Positions 29,618-34,648 of a stretch of DNA of 64,000 nt are shown one piece after another. Source of the stretch: Verrucomicrobia bacterium LP2A (GTDB taxonomy: Bacteria > Verrucomicrobiota > Verrucomicrobiia > Methylacidiphilales > Methylacidiphilaceae); assembly GCA_000526255.1 (NCBI GenBank), contig JAFS01000002.1, positions 682,001 to 746,000 of the forward strand, written 5' to 3'. The first letter of the stretch is position 1. Each line of letters starts with the position of its first letter. Below the pieces are notes generated by a model. It searched no databases, was not told the origin of the DNA, and worked only from the letters and a program-made list of their open reading frames with translations. The translations under genes were made by a program, and so were the position numbers.

Positions 29618-30550
29618 ATGGCCGAAGCGATCCTGAACCAGCCGCAGTTCCAAGAGGTCGACAAGGCGCGTGAGTATATGGAGGCGCTTCGCTGGCCGAA
29701 CGGCCCGGTCTGCCCCCACTGCGGCAGCGCCGGGCAGCATTACAAGCTGGAAGGCAAGGCCCATCGCCCTGGGCTCTGGAAGTGCAAGGACTGCCGCGAA
29801 CAATTCACGGTCACGGTCGGCACTTTGTTCGCCGACAGCAAGGTTCCCCTGAACAAGTGGCTGCAAGCCTGCTACCTGATGTCGGTCAGCAAGAACGGCG
29901 TCAGCGCCAAGCAGTTGGAGCGCATGCTCGGCGTCACCTACAAGACCGCTTGGTTCATGGGCCACTGCATCCGCGAAGCGATGACCGGTAGCCATGACGC
30001 GCTGGTCGGCGGTGACGGTGGGTCGGTGGAAGTGGATGAAACCTACCGGCGCAACACGGGCAAGCAGGCCAAAGGCGCTCGCGGCTACGCTCACAAGATG
30101 AAAGTCGTATCGGTCGTCGAACGCAACGGCCACAAACGATCCTTCCATGTCGCCAACGTGGCGGCGGCCACGGTAAGGCCGATCCTCAAGGCGCAGATTT
30201 CTGAGAAGGCCCGTTTAATGACCGATGCAACGGCCGTTTATAAGAAGATCGGCCGGAAATGTTCGGAGTACAGTGTGGTCACCCTAGTGCCGGCGAGTGC
30301 GCCCACGGGGACGTGACGACGAAGACTGTGGAGTCGAGCTTTGCGATCCGGAAAGAGGGTCTCTATGGCACATTCTACCACGTCAGCGAGAAGCACCTGC
30401 AACGCTACGCGACGGAGTTCGACTTTGAACCACCGAGCGTCGTTGGGATGCACTGATGTTCAACGCGCCGATGTGATGCTGGAGGGTATCGCCGGCAAGA
30501 GGTTGATGTACAGGCACACATCGTGGCTGGAACACTGCCGAGGCAACTGA
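29618..30550 (+). pseudogene. IS1595-family (ISXO2-like) transposase, frameshifted remnant
   Basis: The first 232 codons read as an ISXO2-like transposase: a zinc-ribbon N-terminus (CPHCG ... CKDC), then VEVDETYRRNTG with the first catalytic Asp and LMTDATAVYKK with the second. The protein stops at 30316 after a frameshift near 30280. The missing part is in another frame (GDVTTKTVESSF, then SEKHLQRYATEFDF), and a second break near 30430 moves the last part (RASLGCTDVQRADVMLEGIAGKRLMYRHT, split here as RASLGCTDVQRADV and GIAGKRLMYRHT) to a third frame. Two breaks make activity unlikely. Its terminal repeats were not identified. Confidence 0.8.
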
Positions 30551-30552
30551 GA

Positions 30553-31302
30553 ATGGCCATTGAAACGAAGCAGATCGACACTGAAATTACTCTTGAGCTA
30601 GACGAAGAGGAAATTTCAGTGTCGGATTTTGCCAAAGCCTTCGAGAACTTCTCCGGTCTTGTGCGGGAGATGTCGAAGCAATTCGCTCCTCATAAGGATG
30701 CTTCCGCCTGGCTGGTAAAGGTCTATCCGGGTAGTGTCGGCATCGGGCTTTCCGGGAAACCTGGCGTATATACGGCCAACGAGATCCACCAGATTCGCAC
30801 TAATTTAGTTAGCGGCTTGCGGCAGTTGGAATCTGGCGTCCGCCCCTCGTTCTTCAGCGACAAGTCCGTGGAATGCAGCAAGGCCCTGGGAACGCTGTTC
30901 AAGAGCAAGAAATCGCCTGGCAACGTGCGCATATGGTCCAGGCAGGACGAGGCCGTGAGCATCGGTAGGACGATTGCATCCAGGGCGGAAAATCTTCTGG
31001 AGATTGCCTACGAGGATGACGGTTCCGTTGACGGGTTTTTGCAGAGGCTCTCCGCTCACGGTCAACTGGAGTTCGTCGTCTACGACGTACTTGATGACCG
31101 TGCCATAAAATGCGAAGTAGAAGAAAGTACGCTGCAAATCGCTTGGGAGTCGTTCCGCAAGCGCGTCGAGGTTCTTGGTAAGGTTCGCTACCGGAAGGAT
31201 GGTATGCCGGTGAGCGTGAGAGCGAAGGAGATTATTCCATTCCCGCCTAAAGAGGAGGTTCCCTCTCCCGCCGAAATGCGGCGCTTGCTAGCCGGAACCT
31301 GA
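30553..31302 (+). CDS. Protein of unknown function, possible partner (antitoxin) of a PIN nuclease
   Basis: 249 residues, acidic N-terminus (TEITLELDEEEISVSDF), apparently a soluble alpha/beta protein with a segment PGSVGIGLSGKPGVYTANEI and a Pro-rich C-terminal tail (IIPFPPKEEVPSPAEMRRLL). No family and no DNA-binding motif recognised. Its TGA overlaps the ATG of the PIN-domain gene, a layout typical of antitoxin-toxin pairs with the antitoxin first, but the protein is much larger than ordinary VapB antitoxins. Base composition is more AT-rich than the neighbouring chromosomal genes, and it lies between two IS1595-type transposase genes, so it is probably acquired. Confidence 0.6.
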   Translation: MAIETKQIDTEITLELDEEEISVSDFAKAFENFSGLVREMSKQFAPHKDASAWLVKVYPGSVGIGLSGKPGVYTANEIHQIRTNLVSGLRQLESGVRPSFFSDKSVECSKALGTLFKSKKSPGNVRIWSRQDEAVSIGRTIASRAENLLEIAYEDDGSVDGFLQRLSAHGQLEFVVYDVLDDRAIKCEVEESTLQIAWESFRKRVEVLGKVRYRKDGMPVSVRAKEIIPFPPKEEVPSPAEMRRLLAGT

Positions 31303-31778
31303 TGACGCTGCAGATCGTCTATTGGGACAGCAACGCATTCCTCGGCCTCCTAAACGGTGAGGAAGATAAAGTCCAATCGTGCGAGGACGTGTGGGCGGCT
31401 GGGGAGCGAGGACTCCTTGCCATCGTGACTTCGACATTGACCGTCGCCGAAGTCATCTACGCCAAGGGAGCGTCAAAACTCGATCCGGCAAAGAGACCGA
31501 TGGTGAACAACTTCTTCCGGGCAGCGCATATCGTCCAGAAACCGCTGACACGCACCATCGCGGAACTGGCGAGAGACGTTGTATGGGATTCCAACGTGCG
31601 CCCGAAGGACGCGGTGCACATCGCCACGGCCGCTTACTTCAAGATCAAGGAATTTCACACGTTCGACAAGCCGCTGCTAGATTCCAAGCTCATTACGGTC
31701 AAGGGTTTTGGGGTGTCAATTCAGATGCCATACGTGCCGCGACAGTTAGAGATTTTCGATGGCAGCGAAGGCGAGTAA
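31302..31778 (+). CDS. PIN-domain nuclease (VapC-like toxin candidate)
   Basis: 158 residues with all the acidic positions of a PIN nuclease: VYWDSNAFLG (Asp9), the Glu of LTVAEVIYAKG, the Asp of RPKDAVHIATA and the Asp of FHTFDKPLLD. PIN proteins of this form cleave RNA (tRNA, rRNA or mRNA) and usually act as toxins. Its start overlaps the stop of the upstream unknown gene (TGATG), so the two are translated together. A third very short reading frame overlaps its end. VapC-like function is inferred from fold and layout. Confidence 0.8.
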   Translation: MTLQIVYWDSNAFLGLLNGEEDKVQSCEDVWAAGERGLLAIVTSTLTVAEVIYAKGASKLDPAKRPMVNNFFRAAHIVQKPLTRTIAELARDVVWDSNVRPKDAVHIATAAYFKIKEFHTFDKPLLDSKLITVKGFGVSIQMPYVPRQLEIFDGSEGE

Positions 31779-31890: not shown

Positions 31891-31901
31891 ACAGCCGAAT
31901 A

Positions 31902-31910
31902 ATTGGTCGC
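31902..31910. repeat. Left copy of 9-bp direct repeat (target-site duplication)
   Basis: ATTGGTCGC lies immediately outside the left inverted repeat and recurs in the same orientation at 34501-34509, immediately outside the right one. IS1595-family elements usually duplicate 8 bp; the ninth base may be chance. Confidence 0.75.
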
Positions 31911-31937
31911 GGGCCTATCGGCTTGACGCAGACCGCC
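31911..31937 (+). repeat. Left terminal inverted repeat
   Basis: 27 bases starting GGGCC. The blocks GGG, TATCG, TTGAC, CAG and GCC recur in the same order in the reverse complement of 34473-34500. The interval from here to the transposase start is only 20 bases, so the promoter must lie in or before this repeat. Confidence 0.75.
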
Positions 31938-31957
31938 ACAATCCCTAGATTTTGATC

Positions 31958-32920
31958 ATGATCGGCACCGCCCTCACGCTCCGCGCCTTCCACGATCTCT
32001 TCCCGGACGAGAACGCCGCGCGGGCGTGGTTTGAGCGCGCCCGCTGGCCGGACGGCCCGATCTGCCCGGTGTGCGGATGCGTCAACCACGCCTGCTGGCT
32101 GCGGACGATCCGCCGCTGGCAATGCACCGCCTGCCACCGGCAGTTCTCGGTCACCGCTGGCACGCCGATGCACCGCACCCACCTGCCGATGCTCACCTGG
32201 GCGCAGGCCATCTACCAGATCGTCGCGTCGAGCAAGGGCCTCTCCGCCGTGAAGCTCTCGGAGATGCTGGGCGTATCCTACCAGACGGCGTGGCACCTCG
32301 GCCACCGCATCCGCGCCATGATGGCCGAGGATAGCCCATTGCTGTCCAACCTCGTCGAGATCGACAAGACCCATGCCGGAGCGCTGCCGCGCAAGAGCGC
32401 CAAGCCGGAACGCGCGGACGACGACTGCGACCCGCCTCCGCCCAACCCCGAGGGGCGCGGCCCCAAACGTCCGCTGCTGCTGGTCGCCGCAGAGCGTGGC
32501 GGCAAGTTGGCAACCAAGGTCATTCCAACCCACGGCAAGGCCGCCGTCGCCCGGGCTCTGGACGGCGTGCTCTCCGCCGATGCGCTGGCGATGACCGATG
32601 GTCTCCCGGCCGACAGGCACCTGGGCGCGGAACGCACCCACTTGTCCGTCAACCAGAGCCAGCGGGAGTACGCCCGCACCGACTCCGCGACCGGCCACCG
32701 CGTCCACGTCAACCGCGTTGAATCCTTCAACGGGTTCCTGGGACGCGCCGTGGTCGGCCTCTTCCATTTCGTCTCGCCAAAGCATCTCGGACGCTACGCC
32801 GGCGAAGCCGCCTTCCGCTGGAACCGCAAGGCCGACGCCTGCCGGGAGCGCATGGCCCTGCTCGTCCGGGGCGGCGTCGGGCGCACGCTGCCTTACCGCT
32901 TTCTCACGGGAACCGCCTGA
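31958..32920 (+). CDS. IS1595-family transposase
   Basis: 320 residues. An N-terminal zinc ribbon (CPVCGCVNHACWLR ... CTACHRQFSVTAGT) is followed by a helix-turn-helix-like region (KLSEMLGVSYQTAWHLGHRIR) and a DDE-type core. The first catalytic Asp is in LVEIDKTHAGA (most relatives have DET rather than DKT), the second in LAMTDGLPAD, and the C-terminal VNRVESFNGFLGRAVVG and FHFVSPKHLGRYAGE complete the ISXO2-like domain. ATG at 31958 is used. Its TGA overlaps the ATG of the nuclease gene. It differs clearly from the decayed copy at 29618, so the two are not one duplicated element. Confidence 0.88.
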   Translation: MIGTALTLRAFHDLFPDENAARAWFERARWPDGPICPVCGCVNHACWLRTIRRWQCTACHRQFSVTAGTPMHRTHLPMLTWAQAIYQIVASSKGLSAVKLSEMLGVSYQTAWHLGHRIRAMMAEDSPLLSNLVEIDKTHAGALPRKSAKPERADDDCDPPPPNPEGRGPKRPLLLVAAERGGKLATKVIPTHGKAAVARALDGVLSADALAMTDGLPADRHLGAERTHLSVNQSQREYARTDSATGHRVHVNRVESFNGFLGRAVVGLFHFVSPKHLGRYAGEAAFRWNRKADACRERMALLVRGGVGRTLPYRFLTGTA

Positions 32921-34482
32921 TGGCCCGCACGAAGCCCGAGCATCCGCCCGTCCATCGGACCGACCTGCTGCCGTCGAACCTGACGGCCAGCAAAGAGGCG
33001 GCGGTGCGCGCGCTGCTCAGAGCCTACCGCCGGGGCGCGGTGCTGCTGGGCCGGGAAGAGTGGCGGCTCTTCTTCGAGACGGGCCGCTTTGACAAGAACC
33101 ACGACGCGGACAAGGTCACCTTTGCCGCCGTCATCGGCGCGGCCAACCGCGTCCAGATGGCCCGCTGGCAGATCGTCGGGCAGCTCCAGGGCTGGATCCG
33201 TAACCGGGCCAACGAGTTCCGCGATACGGTCAACCACAGCACGCTGGCACCCGCCACCAAGCAGATGCTCCACGCCATCAACGGCCTGGGCGCGTGGTTC
33301 TGGCGCGGCGAGGTGGCGAGGAGAGAGACGGGCGAGGTGATTCCGGTTTCCGTGCGACGGCTGGCGCGCGCCATGATGCGCCACTGCATGGCGCGGCATC
33401 GCCGCCCGGACCTCTCGCGCATCTCCATGCGCCTCGACCACCGCGCGGGGAGCATCGCCCGCCCCATCCAGGCGACGCAGGGCGGCAGGGTCGGCTGGTG
33501 GGTGAGCCTCTCCACGCTCGAGAAGGGGCGCAAGATCGCCATCCCGCTGCTCACCTACGACTACCATGCCAAGCGTCCTGGCCGCGTGACCAACGGCATC
33601 CAGGTGAACGAGCGCGAGGGTCGCCTGAGCTTCGGCGTGGTGACCGACATGGGCGAGGTCTGCGCCAAAAGCCGCGCCGCCTACGACGGCCACGGCGCGC
33701 TGGCGCTTGATTTTGGGCTGTCCACGCTCTTGGCCACATCCGACGGCCGGCTGCTCGGCCAGGGCTGGCTCAAGCGGCTCAAGCGGTACGACGCGCTGCT
33801 TGCCTTGATCGCGGCCAGCCAGCAGCGTGCCGGACGCAGGCCACGCGAGAGCAAGCGGTATCGGGCGCTGGTGGAGGACGTGCGCGGCTTCCTTCGCACC
33901 GAGGTCGGCCGCGTGCTCAACCGCCTTGTCGAGCAGGGCAAGCCCAAGGAGTTGGTGCTGGAGCGGCTCGACTTCCGCCACTCCGACCTCTCAAGGCGGC
34001 TCAACGCGATCCTGCGCAACTGCGGACGCTCGATCGTCCAGGAGAAGTTGCGCGACCTGGAGGAGCGGTTCGGAATCCCCTCCGCCGAGGTCAACGCCGC
34101 ATACACCTCTCAGGCATGTTCCGGTTGCGGCTATGTGGACAAGCGGAACCGCCGCGACCAGAAGACCTTCGTCTGCCTTTGGTGCGGTCACCAAATGCAC
34201 GCCGACCTCAATGCGGCGGCCAACATCGAAGCGCGCCGTGCGCGCCCCAATGGTTGGCTCTTCCAGGGGAAGGCTGCGGTCCTTGCCGAGCTCGTGCGCG
34301 AGTTCGGGGAGCGACCTGTCCGGGCGCTGAGCCTGGGCAGAACCGGGAGCCGGGGTGCCCCCGCCGACCCACGATCAACCAATCCCTACTTCGGTGGAGT
34401 GCCGTTGCCCGTGGTGAGGTCATCCGAACGCCGCGAGGCGTCCATGAAATCGCCCGATCCTCCAGCCCTTGCGGCTGCCTGA
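32920..34482 (+). CDS. tnpB: TnpB-type RNA-guided RuvC nuclease
   Basis: 520 residues. The RuvC triad is intact: Asp264 in ALDFGLSTLLAT, Glu348 in ELVLERLDF and Asp429 in HADLNAAANI. Between the last two is the zinc finger CSGCG ... CLWCG (Cys400, 403, 419, 422). Before the triad lies about 260 residues of helical and beta-rich N-terminal domain. After Asp429 come another 91 residues, long for TnpB, whose DNA also contains RNA-like hairpins and the right inverted repeat. TnpB enzymes cut double-stranded DNA guided by a transposon-encoded RNA. It is translationally coupled to an IS1595 transposase, an uncommon partner. Confidence 0.87.
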   Translation: MARTKPEHPPVHRTDLLPSNLTASKEAAVRALLRAYRRGAVLLGREEWRLFFETGRFDKNHDADKVTFAAVIGAANRVQMARWQIVGQLQGWIRNRANEFRDTVNHSTLAPATKQMLHAINGLGAWFWRGEVARRETGEVIPVSVRRLARAMMRHCMARHRRPDLSRISMRLDHRAGSIARPIQATQGGRVGWWVSLSTLEKGRKIAIPLLTYDYHAKRPGRVTNGIQVNEREGRLSFGVVTDMGEVCAKSRAAYDGHGALALDFGLSTLLATSDGRLLGQGWLKRLKRYDALLALIAASQQRAGRRPRESKRYRALVEDVRGFLRTEVGRVLNRLVEQGKPKELVLERLDFRHSDLSRRLNAILRNCGRSIVQEKLRDLEERFGIPSAEVNAAYTSQACSGCGYVDKRNRRDQKTFVCLWCGHQMHADLNAAANIEARRARPNGWLFQGKAAVLAELVREFGERPVRALSLGRTGSRGAPADPRSTNPYFGGVPLPVVRSSERREASMKSPDPPALAAA

Positions 34483-34500
34483 GTCAACGCGATAGTACCC
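34376..34500 (+). ncRNA. Candidate guide-RNA scaffold (omega/reRNA) in the 3' end of tnpB
   Basis: TnpB guide RNAs are normally made from the 3' end of the gene to the right end of the transposon. Here three compact stem-loops follow each other: 34384-34399 with a CTTCGG (UUCG) tetraloop, 34428-34441 ACGCC-GCGA-GGCGT with a GNRA tetraloop, and 34463-34477 CAGCC/GGCTG. UUCG and GNRA loops are typical of selected RNA structure rather than coding sequence. Limits are estimates; the true 5' end could lie well upstream and the 3' guide would be taken from DNA beyond 34500 if the usual rule holds. Confidence 0.4.
34473..34500 (-). repeat. Right terminal inverted repeat
   Basis: 28 bases; reverse complement starts GGGTACTATCGCG and mirrors the left end. 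The tnpB stop codon (34480-34482) is inside this repeat, so coding sequence and transposon end overlap. Confidence 0.75.
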
Positions 34501-34509
34501 ATTGGTCGC
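34501..34509. repeat. Right copy of 9-bp direct repeat
   Basis: ATTGGTCGC, same orientation as 31902-31910, directly after the right inverted repeat. Interpreted as the second copy of the target-site duplication. Confidence 0.75.
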
Positions 34510-34648
34510 TTGGGTCATACGCGACGCCGCCGAGAAGTACATCGTGGAACAGTGGCCCTTGCTGGAAGGGCGTCGATTCTCGAGAAAGGCATGGCAAGAA
34601 CAAAAAAATCTGCTCCCCTTACCCACTCAATTCAGCGGGGAGCCTTGA
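34510..34648 (+). other. Possible gene remnant right of the island
   Basis: Between the element and the ChaN-like gene, one frame reads RDAAEKYIVEQWPLLEGRR then FSRKAWQEQKNLLPLPTQF and stops at 34646-34648, inside the 3' end of the oppositely oriented ChaN gene. No start codon or ribosome binding site is visible. It may be the 3' end of a gene cut off by the island, or chance. Confidence 0.2.

Follow-up and report, generated by a model that had tools for sequence, protein, structure and literature searches.

Organization of the element

The window analysed here, a stretch of 64,000 nucleotides from Verrucomicrobia bacterium LP2A, lies on contig C2 of a 2.47 Mb genome and contains an IS1595-family insertion element that carries a tnpB-type nuclease gene next to its transposase gene, in the same direction. 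The start of the element, CGGGCC at position 31910, is fixed by eleven near-identical copies at other sites, and its final base is 34500 (...GATAGTACCC). The sequence opens with CGGGCCTATCG and closes with CGATAGTACCC, and the terminal inverted repeats read CGGGCCTATCG on the left and GGGTACTATCG on the right. A ninth shared base, C, beside the flanking 8-bp duplication is the first base of the element itself and does not belong to the duplication. The sequence to the left of the left duplication copy is GCCGAATA. The features of the insertion, including the putative target-adjacent motif (TAM) of the nuclease, are as follows.

31899..31901, + strand: putative TAM ATA (consensus RTA), adjoining the left end of the target duplication
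31902..31909, + strand: left copy of the target duplication, ATTGGTCG, perfect over 8 bp
31910..34500, + strand: IS1595-family element, 2591 bp, CGGGCC...GTACCC, with ends common to 11 near-identical copies elsewhere
31952..32920, + strand: IS1595 DDE transposase gene, 322 amino acids (PF12762, E 7e-21; PF12760, E 1e-11; NF033547, 125 bits against a cut-off of 75)
32920..34482, + strand: tnpB-type RNA-guided nuclease gene, 520 amino acids (PF07282, 58.5 bits against a cut-off of 26.3)
34501..34508, + strand: right copy of the target duplication, ATTGGTCG, the first 8 nt of the predicted guide

The element is a cut-and-paste IS1595-family DDE transposon carrying a TnpB-type nuclease. Its transposase combines the ISXO2-like DDE domain with a zinc ribbon (PF12762, PF12760 and NF033547, all above their cut-offs), and the inverted repeats are accompanied by the 8-bp duplication typical of the family, with at most one mismatch in 16 of the 22 insertions compared. 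The gene upstream of tnpB encodes an IS1595 DDE transposase and not a Y1 or serine-recombinase TnpA, which places the element outside IS200/IS605 and IS607. Twelve near-identical copies are known, six in the genome of the window (G000) and six in a sister species (G002).

The nuclease has an invariant RuvC D-E-D triad (D264, E348, D429) and invariant zinc-ribbon cysteines (400, 403, 419, 422) in 37 homologues, and its Cas12f1-like TNB/zinc-ribbon domain scores well above the PF07282 cut-off. Its score of 82 bits with the NCBIfam model guided_TnpB (NF040570) falls under the cut-off of 100, which is a naming threshold and not a biological feature; by this model, the protein is a divergent member of TnpB. 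The AlphaFold model, built from 37 sequences, has a mean confidence (pLDDT) of 81, with the last ~50 residues disordered. It shows the TnpB/Cas12 fold, with 67 PDB matches at E <= 0.001, among the best of which are Cas12f, ISFba1 TnpB and ISDra2 TnpB; the closest PDB sequence is a Cas12f (E 1e-12). The protein lacks the marks of Fanzors and pro-Fanzors, a DPG motif and a glutamate six residues before the zinc finger: the motif reads D264-F-G266, and E348 lies 52 residues before C400. It also remains far from the NCBIfam model of Cas12f2 (NF049972, 47 bits against a cut-off of 450).

A one-sided motif at the insertion sites

The trinucleotide RTA (ATA or GTA) stands directly to the left of the 8-nt site in 20 of the 22 insertions and TA in 21 of them, while RTA occupies 86 of 8712 background flank positions, and a binomial test excludes chance. 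The mirrored TA is found on the right side of none (0/22). Information is limited to positions -3 to +2 (0.45, 1.53, 1.86, 0.86 and 0.45 bits), and the positions surrounding the other end of the duplication carry none. Where the duplication has at most one mismatch, RTA precedes the site in 14 of 16 insertions, and all 16 duplications begin with A or T. The counts exclude an element without its left end (L112, in G039), fragments represented by right ends only (L062-L065, in G003) and a partial copy at the end of contig C1; the G6 element, whose left end has diverged and whose boundary is a matter of judgement, is within the 20 and outside the 16. The first-pass annotation had called for a search for a constant motif left of independent copies, and RTA is such a motif. 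It had also given CCGAATA as the sequence that would precede the empty site; this sequence is right for the window, and at other insertions its last three bases alone are constant.

IS1595 elements without tnpB, taken as controls where they had recognisable ends and a duplication, show RTA in one case of 13 (Ponticoccus, L130), and the difference from the 16 tnpB-bearing insertions with good duplications is significant (Fisher p = 2e-5). Seven further control loci (L128, L248, L251, L253, L254, L255, L259) were left out for want of usable ends, and L129 was kept despite a one-mismatch duplication in an A run. RTA is a putative TAM, positioned directly upstream of the predicted target.

The joined flanks of the twelve near-identical copies were searched against the genomes of the genus, and empty alleles were found for nine of the twelve sites. 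None was found for the window copy in six other genomes of the genus, and none for C1_1040 or G2_057; the pre-insertion site of the window copy is therefore deduced from the target duplication. RTA occupies the expected place in 16 of 22 aligned empty alleles. The 20-nt guides predicted for G2_058 and G2_060, two of the G002 copies, match in full the empty alleles in the genome of the window (G000), with GTA in front. At C2_209 the left side has lost about 21 nt and the ATA now found there is not informative; in the empty allele of the sister species, GTA directly precedes the guide of this copy.

Predicted guide-RNA scaffold and probable start of the guide

The predicted RNA overlaps the 3' end of tnpB, and its elements are distributed as follows.

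34190..34500, + strand: guide-RNA scaffold region, indicated by a rise in synonymous-codon identity at ~34180 and by covarying structure; the 5' limit is approximate
34344..34363, + strand: hairpin CGGGAGC[CGGGGU]GCCCCCG; four bases of its loop, 34353-34356 (GGGU), pair with the end of the element, as seen in 14/14 right ends
34426..34443, + strand: helix 3, a hairpin with a GNRA-like loop (the repeat-like hairpin of the first-pass annotation), two pairs changed on both sides
34449..34454, + strand: helix 4, 5' strand of the 3'-terminal helix, pairing with 34488-34493, three pairs changed on both sides
34464..34476, + strand: helix 5, a small hairpin AGCC/GGCU within the terminal helix, 93.8% of cells paired, no change on both sides
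34488..34493, + strand: 3' strand of the terminal helix, indicated by covariation
34497..34500, + strand: last four bases of the element, ACCC, the pseudoknot strand directly before the guide, with loop pairing in 14/14
34501..34520, + strand: predicted guide ATTGGTCGCTTGGGTCATAC, following from the scaffold end and the position of the TAM

Synonymous-codon identity among five tnpB genes, measured in 20-codon blocks, lies between 0.48 and 0.75 up to codon 420, and amounts to 0.84, 0.90, 0.78, 0.69 and 0.85 in the blocks from 34180 to the stop codon. Judging by the aligned genes, this rise marks an RNA that overlaps the gene. L111 keeps the sequence of the 3' part of tnpB although its frame is disrupted there. 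A structure of 28 pairs, drawn by hand from the same 12 sequences on which it was scored, comprises two hairpins, a pseudoknot and a terminal helix that encloses a further hairpin. It is formed in 89.6% of cells, and its base pairing is visible in covariation: eight pairs have changed on both sides, with 20 such cells against 7.8 in shuffled alignments (0/500). Sliding the structure along the alignment lowers the pairing to 33-49%. One outer pair of the terminal helix is unpaired in 7 of the 12 sequences, and the pseudoknot pairs are formed in all of them (100%).

The pseudoknot ties the end of the element to the loop of a hairpin some 150 nt upstream. Within the 300-nt region, no stretch other than GGGTGC is complementary to the terminal GTACCC in all 19 distinct sequences. 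The loop and the end covary between elements: GGGU/ACCC in the window, GGGC/GCCC in L166, GGUG/CACC in Salipiger and G1094, and GGAG/CUCC in G776; wobble forms (GGGU/GCCC) are also present. Under a permissive null, 102-132 of 256 random 4-mers fit some hairpin in the region (the null did not reach the G1094 hairpin at -216), so the mere existence of a 4-base match carries little weight. The homologous hairpin fits its own element end in 4 of 4 cases and swapped ends in 1 of 12, as compared by eye for the window, L166, Salipiger and G776. The left element end is free of the pseudoknot constraint (CGGG in most), which suggests that the RNA constrains the sequence of the right inverted repeat.

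Pseudoknots at the same place have precedents. In ISDra2, the scaffold positions that form a pseudoknot are -6 to -2 relative to the guide (PMC10097598), and in ISXfa1 the pseudoknot is needed for activity (PMC10711439). Given the terminal-base pseudoknot and these precedents, the scaffold most likely ends at the element end and the guide most likely starts at 34501. The first-pass annotation gave the sequence and coordinates of the insertion and of the guide ATTGGTCGCTTGGGTCATAC exactly. Its proposal of a scaffold ending at the right end, a guide opening with the duplication and a T/A-rich TAM directly to the left gains support from three independent lines: the RTA boundary, the empty alleles and the compensating changes in the terminal pseudoknot.

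Proposed mechanism and its alternatives

We consider it likely that the IS1595 element carries a TnpB whose guide is copied from the DNA just past the right end and whose target is the uninserted site. The transposase inserts the element with an 8-bp duplication. The scaffold RNA would start within the 3' end of tnpB (about 34190) and end at the last base of the element, with the terminal ACCC locked into the loop of the upstream hairpin, and transcription would run on into host DNA, providing a guide made of the 8-bp duplication and the next host bases. The target would be the same site without the insertion, with the RTA TAM directly upstream. The TnpB-RNA complex might then cut empty alleles, on the sister chromosome after excision or on incoming DNA, and the occupied copy would serve as the template for repair, so that the element is restored or spreads. 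The element, its genes, the duplication, the one-sided motif and, through covariation, the RNA pairing are observed; we infer the transcript ends, the cleavage, the function of the TAM and the effect on retention. Retention and spread driven by the nuclease through repair from the occupied copy have been reported for IS200/605 elements (PMC11870625).

Several observations weigh against this scheme. Two insertions depart from RTA (CTA in G776 and CCA in G1094), and six of the 22 have no good duplication, with two or more mismatches. The element copies of the two sister genomes are near-identical, and are independent as sites but not as elements. Six of the 22 aligned empty alleles lack RTA: they include both alleles of C2_942, one in each relative, three of the five alleles of G2_056 (ATG, ATG, ACA), and the allele of G2_059 in the genome of the window, which reads CTA. 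The control transposases are distant, about 30-42% identical where measured, and a clade-specific preference of the transposase is thus possible. At its left junction the occupied site still has the TAM followed by the first 8-9 bases that match the guide, which might expose it to self-targeting. Folded as a single sequence, the scaffold has an unremarkable energy (z -1.16), and the structural case therefore rests on covariation.

RTA could be no TAM at all and simply reflect an insertion preference of this clade of transposases, with TnpB as a passenger recognising an unrelated TAM. The motif does flank the phosphate attacked by the right end, no tnpB-less copy with a close transposase was found for comparison, and at an RTA background of only 1% blind insertion followed by loss would call for an enrichment of about a thousandfold. 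A transposase acting through two like subunits on nearly identical ends is nevertheless expected to leave the motif mirrored or in random orientation, and the right side never carries it; more distant IS1595 insertions are almost devoid of it; and it stands exactly where a TAM would be expected given the scaffold end, which the pseudoknot indicates independently. We therefore regard a preference of the transposase by itself as unlikely. The like ends of a DDE transposase make an asymmetric motif that is always on one side unexpected, and the strict left-sidedness is hard to explain by a symmetric transposase alone. Random insertion with later loss of the non-RTA copies would need about a thousandfold enrichment (20:2 against the 1% background), which makes directed insertion a serious possibility. 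Insertion itself might be channelled to the TAM in a fixed orientation, either because TnpB with its RNA helps in the choice of target or because the transposase itself has come to read its target on one side only, in a way that agrees with the TAM; we advance this tentatively, as the less probable course.

The boundaries of the guide could also lie elsewhere. The first-pass annotation had offered, as an alternative, a scaffold ending at the hairpin near 34428-34441 and a guide that begins inside the element near 34450. Conservation is higher up to AAATC than in the 50 nt that follow, which speaks for this alternative, but 34449-34454 pairs with 34488-34493 with changes on both sides, 34497-34500 is taken up by the pseudoknot, and a guide of this kind would hardly vary between copies and would have ATC and not RTA as its 5' neighbour in the element; this start of the guide is disfavoured and appears highly improbable. 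Scarcely more credible is a scaffold that includes the duplication, with the guide starting after 34508, as reported for eukaryotic Fanzor1 and Fanzor2* elements (PMC10711439): here the duplication differs at every site, RTA precedes it, and no TAM is seen inside it apart from A/T at its first position and a weak T at its second. TnpB might, finally, be catalytically silent or domesticated and the system a relic, as the broken transposase in 7 of the 12 near-identical copies could indicate. This, too, is quite unlikely, for tnpB is full length and free of stops in all 12 copies, the catalytic triad is invariant, and copies sharing one internal deletion (G2_057 and G2_060) occupy different sites with perfect duplications.

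Copies and relatives

Of the 12 near-identical copies, 5 have an intact transposase and 7 a broken one, which is split into two frames in C2_942 and affected by internal deletions in the other six. The deletion is identical in G2_057 and G2_060, each of which has a perfect duplication at a different site, so the deleted form itself must have moved. The integrity of tnpB in 12/12 copies beside the frequent loss of the transposase agrees with selection on the nuclease. In G000 and G002, copies with a broken transposase and with tnpB and scaffold intact outnumber complete ones (7/12).

More distant IS1595 elements with TnpB are found in Azospirillum sp. B21 and a second genome of the same order (L054, L111), in Indioceanicola profundi (L101, L102), in Salipiger profundus (L103), in another genome of the genus of the window (L061), in two contigs of viral collections (L163, L166) and in two further genomes (G776, G1094). 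Such matches are rare: among 82 genomes of the Azospirillum order four had them, as did two of 398 in the phylum sample and two of 390 in the order of G776. A search of viral contigs with the Salipiger protein gave no matches. A Methylocalor locus (L126) was rejected as a relative: it has a related transposase, but a second transposase gene follows, and a search for element ends gave none.

In a tree of 20 TnpBs, whose root is not fixed by an outgroup and some of whose branches are long, eight IS1595-associated proteins group together (93/94) beside four IS607-associated ones. Since the IS1595-associated proteins form a single group beside those of IS607, one capture of TnpB from an IS607-type source would be the simplest reading of the tree.

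Comparison with known systems

TnpB has been tied in print to the IS200/605 and IS607 families only, and the reason for this was posed as an open question (PMC10711439). Our literature search found no report of TnpB in an IS1595 element; most subscription journals lie outside its coverage, so absence from print is not shown. The nearest proteins outside the IS1595 group are IS607-family TnpBs of a Thermus thermophilus plasmid (L107, 37% identity) and a Bifidobacterium longum plasmid (L108, 35% identity), and a pseudoknot before the guide is shared with ISXfa1 of that family (PMC10711439). The IS607-family neighbour, however, is a serine recombinase (PF00239 in L107) and that of the IS1595 element a DDE enzyme; the IS1595 element lacks a fixed right-flanking dinucleotide, and a variable 8-bp duplication opens its predicted guide. 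The motif differs as well: GGG is depleted with ISXfa1 (PMC10711439), whereas RTA is the predicted TAM here.

With ISDra2 of the IS200/IS605 family, the element shares a scaffold over the 3' end of tnpB that ends at the right end, a TAM (putative here) to the left of the insertion, and a pseudoknot of the bases just before the guide (PMC10097598). IS200/IS605 elements differ in using a Y1 single-strand transposase that leaves no duplication, and their TAM is the target motif of the transposase itself (PMC11870625). Fanzor1 and Fanzor2*, from eukaryotic DDE and other transposons, are likewise RNA-guided nucleases descended from TnpB, and the elements that carry them have inverted repeats and duplications. 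The IS1595-associated TnpB, in contrast, is bacterial, has a D-F-G motif and the glutamate in the canonical place, and the duplication is its predicted guide and not part of the scaffold. IS1595 elements without tnpB, such as ISPepr2, have the same DDE transposase type, inverted repeats and 8-bp duplication, but carry no nuclease and show no RTA bias. Cas12f proteins provide the best structural matches of the model, yet the low NF049972 score, the location in a transposon and the predicted guide at the element end set the IS1595-associated TnpB apart from them.

A single group of IS1595-associated TnpBs in several bacterial lineages would amount to the capture of TnpB by a bacterial DDE transposon, parallel to the eukaryotic Fanzors. 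The boundary of the guide would be solved in an economical way: the variable duplication becomes the first eight bases of the guide, and the last bases of the inverted repeat also serve as one strand of the pseudoknot. The system provides a compact nuclease for which a short motif, RTA, is predicted, and it allows one to ask whether the sites chosen by a cut-and-paste transposase can be influenced by a nuclease. Should directed insertion prove true, a bacterial DDE transposon would be coupled to an RNA-guided nuclease at the targeting step.

Further observations

The contig L166 has lost most of the transposase and of tnpB, and keeps both ends and the RNA scaffold; GTA still precedes its insertion site. 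An IS1595 element present in four copies in Indioceanicola profundi (L101:6485-8425) combines a transposase with two small passenger genes, has 8-bp duplications and shows no preference for RTA; it seems that passengers are readily acquired by IS1595 elements. A related TnpB-like gene on a Mycobacterium intracellulare plasmid (L109) has no recognisable transposase adjoining it.

In the window itself, positions 29618-31778 hold a second, truncated IS1595-type transposase (41% identical over part), behind which lie an unknown gene and one with a PIN domain; its surroundings showed no inverted repeats accompanied by a duplication. The whole genome G000 contains twenty matches to the TNB domain, of which fourteen lie outside the IS1595-associated family and point to several other TnpB elements in the same genome.
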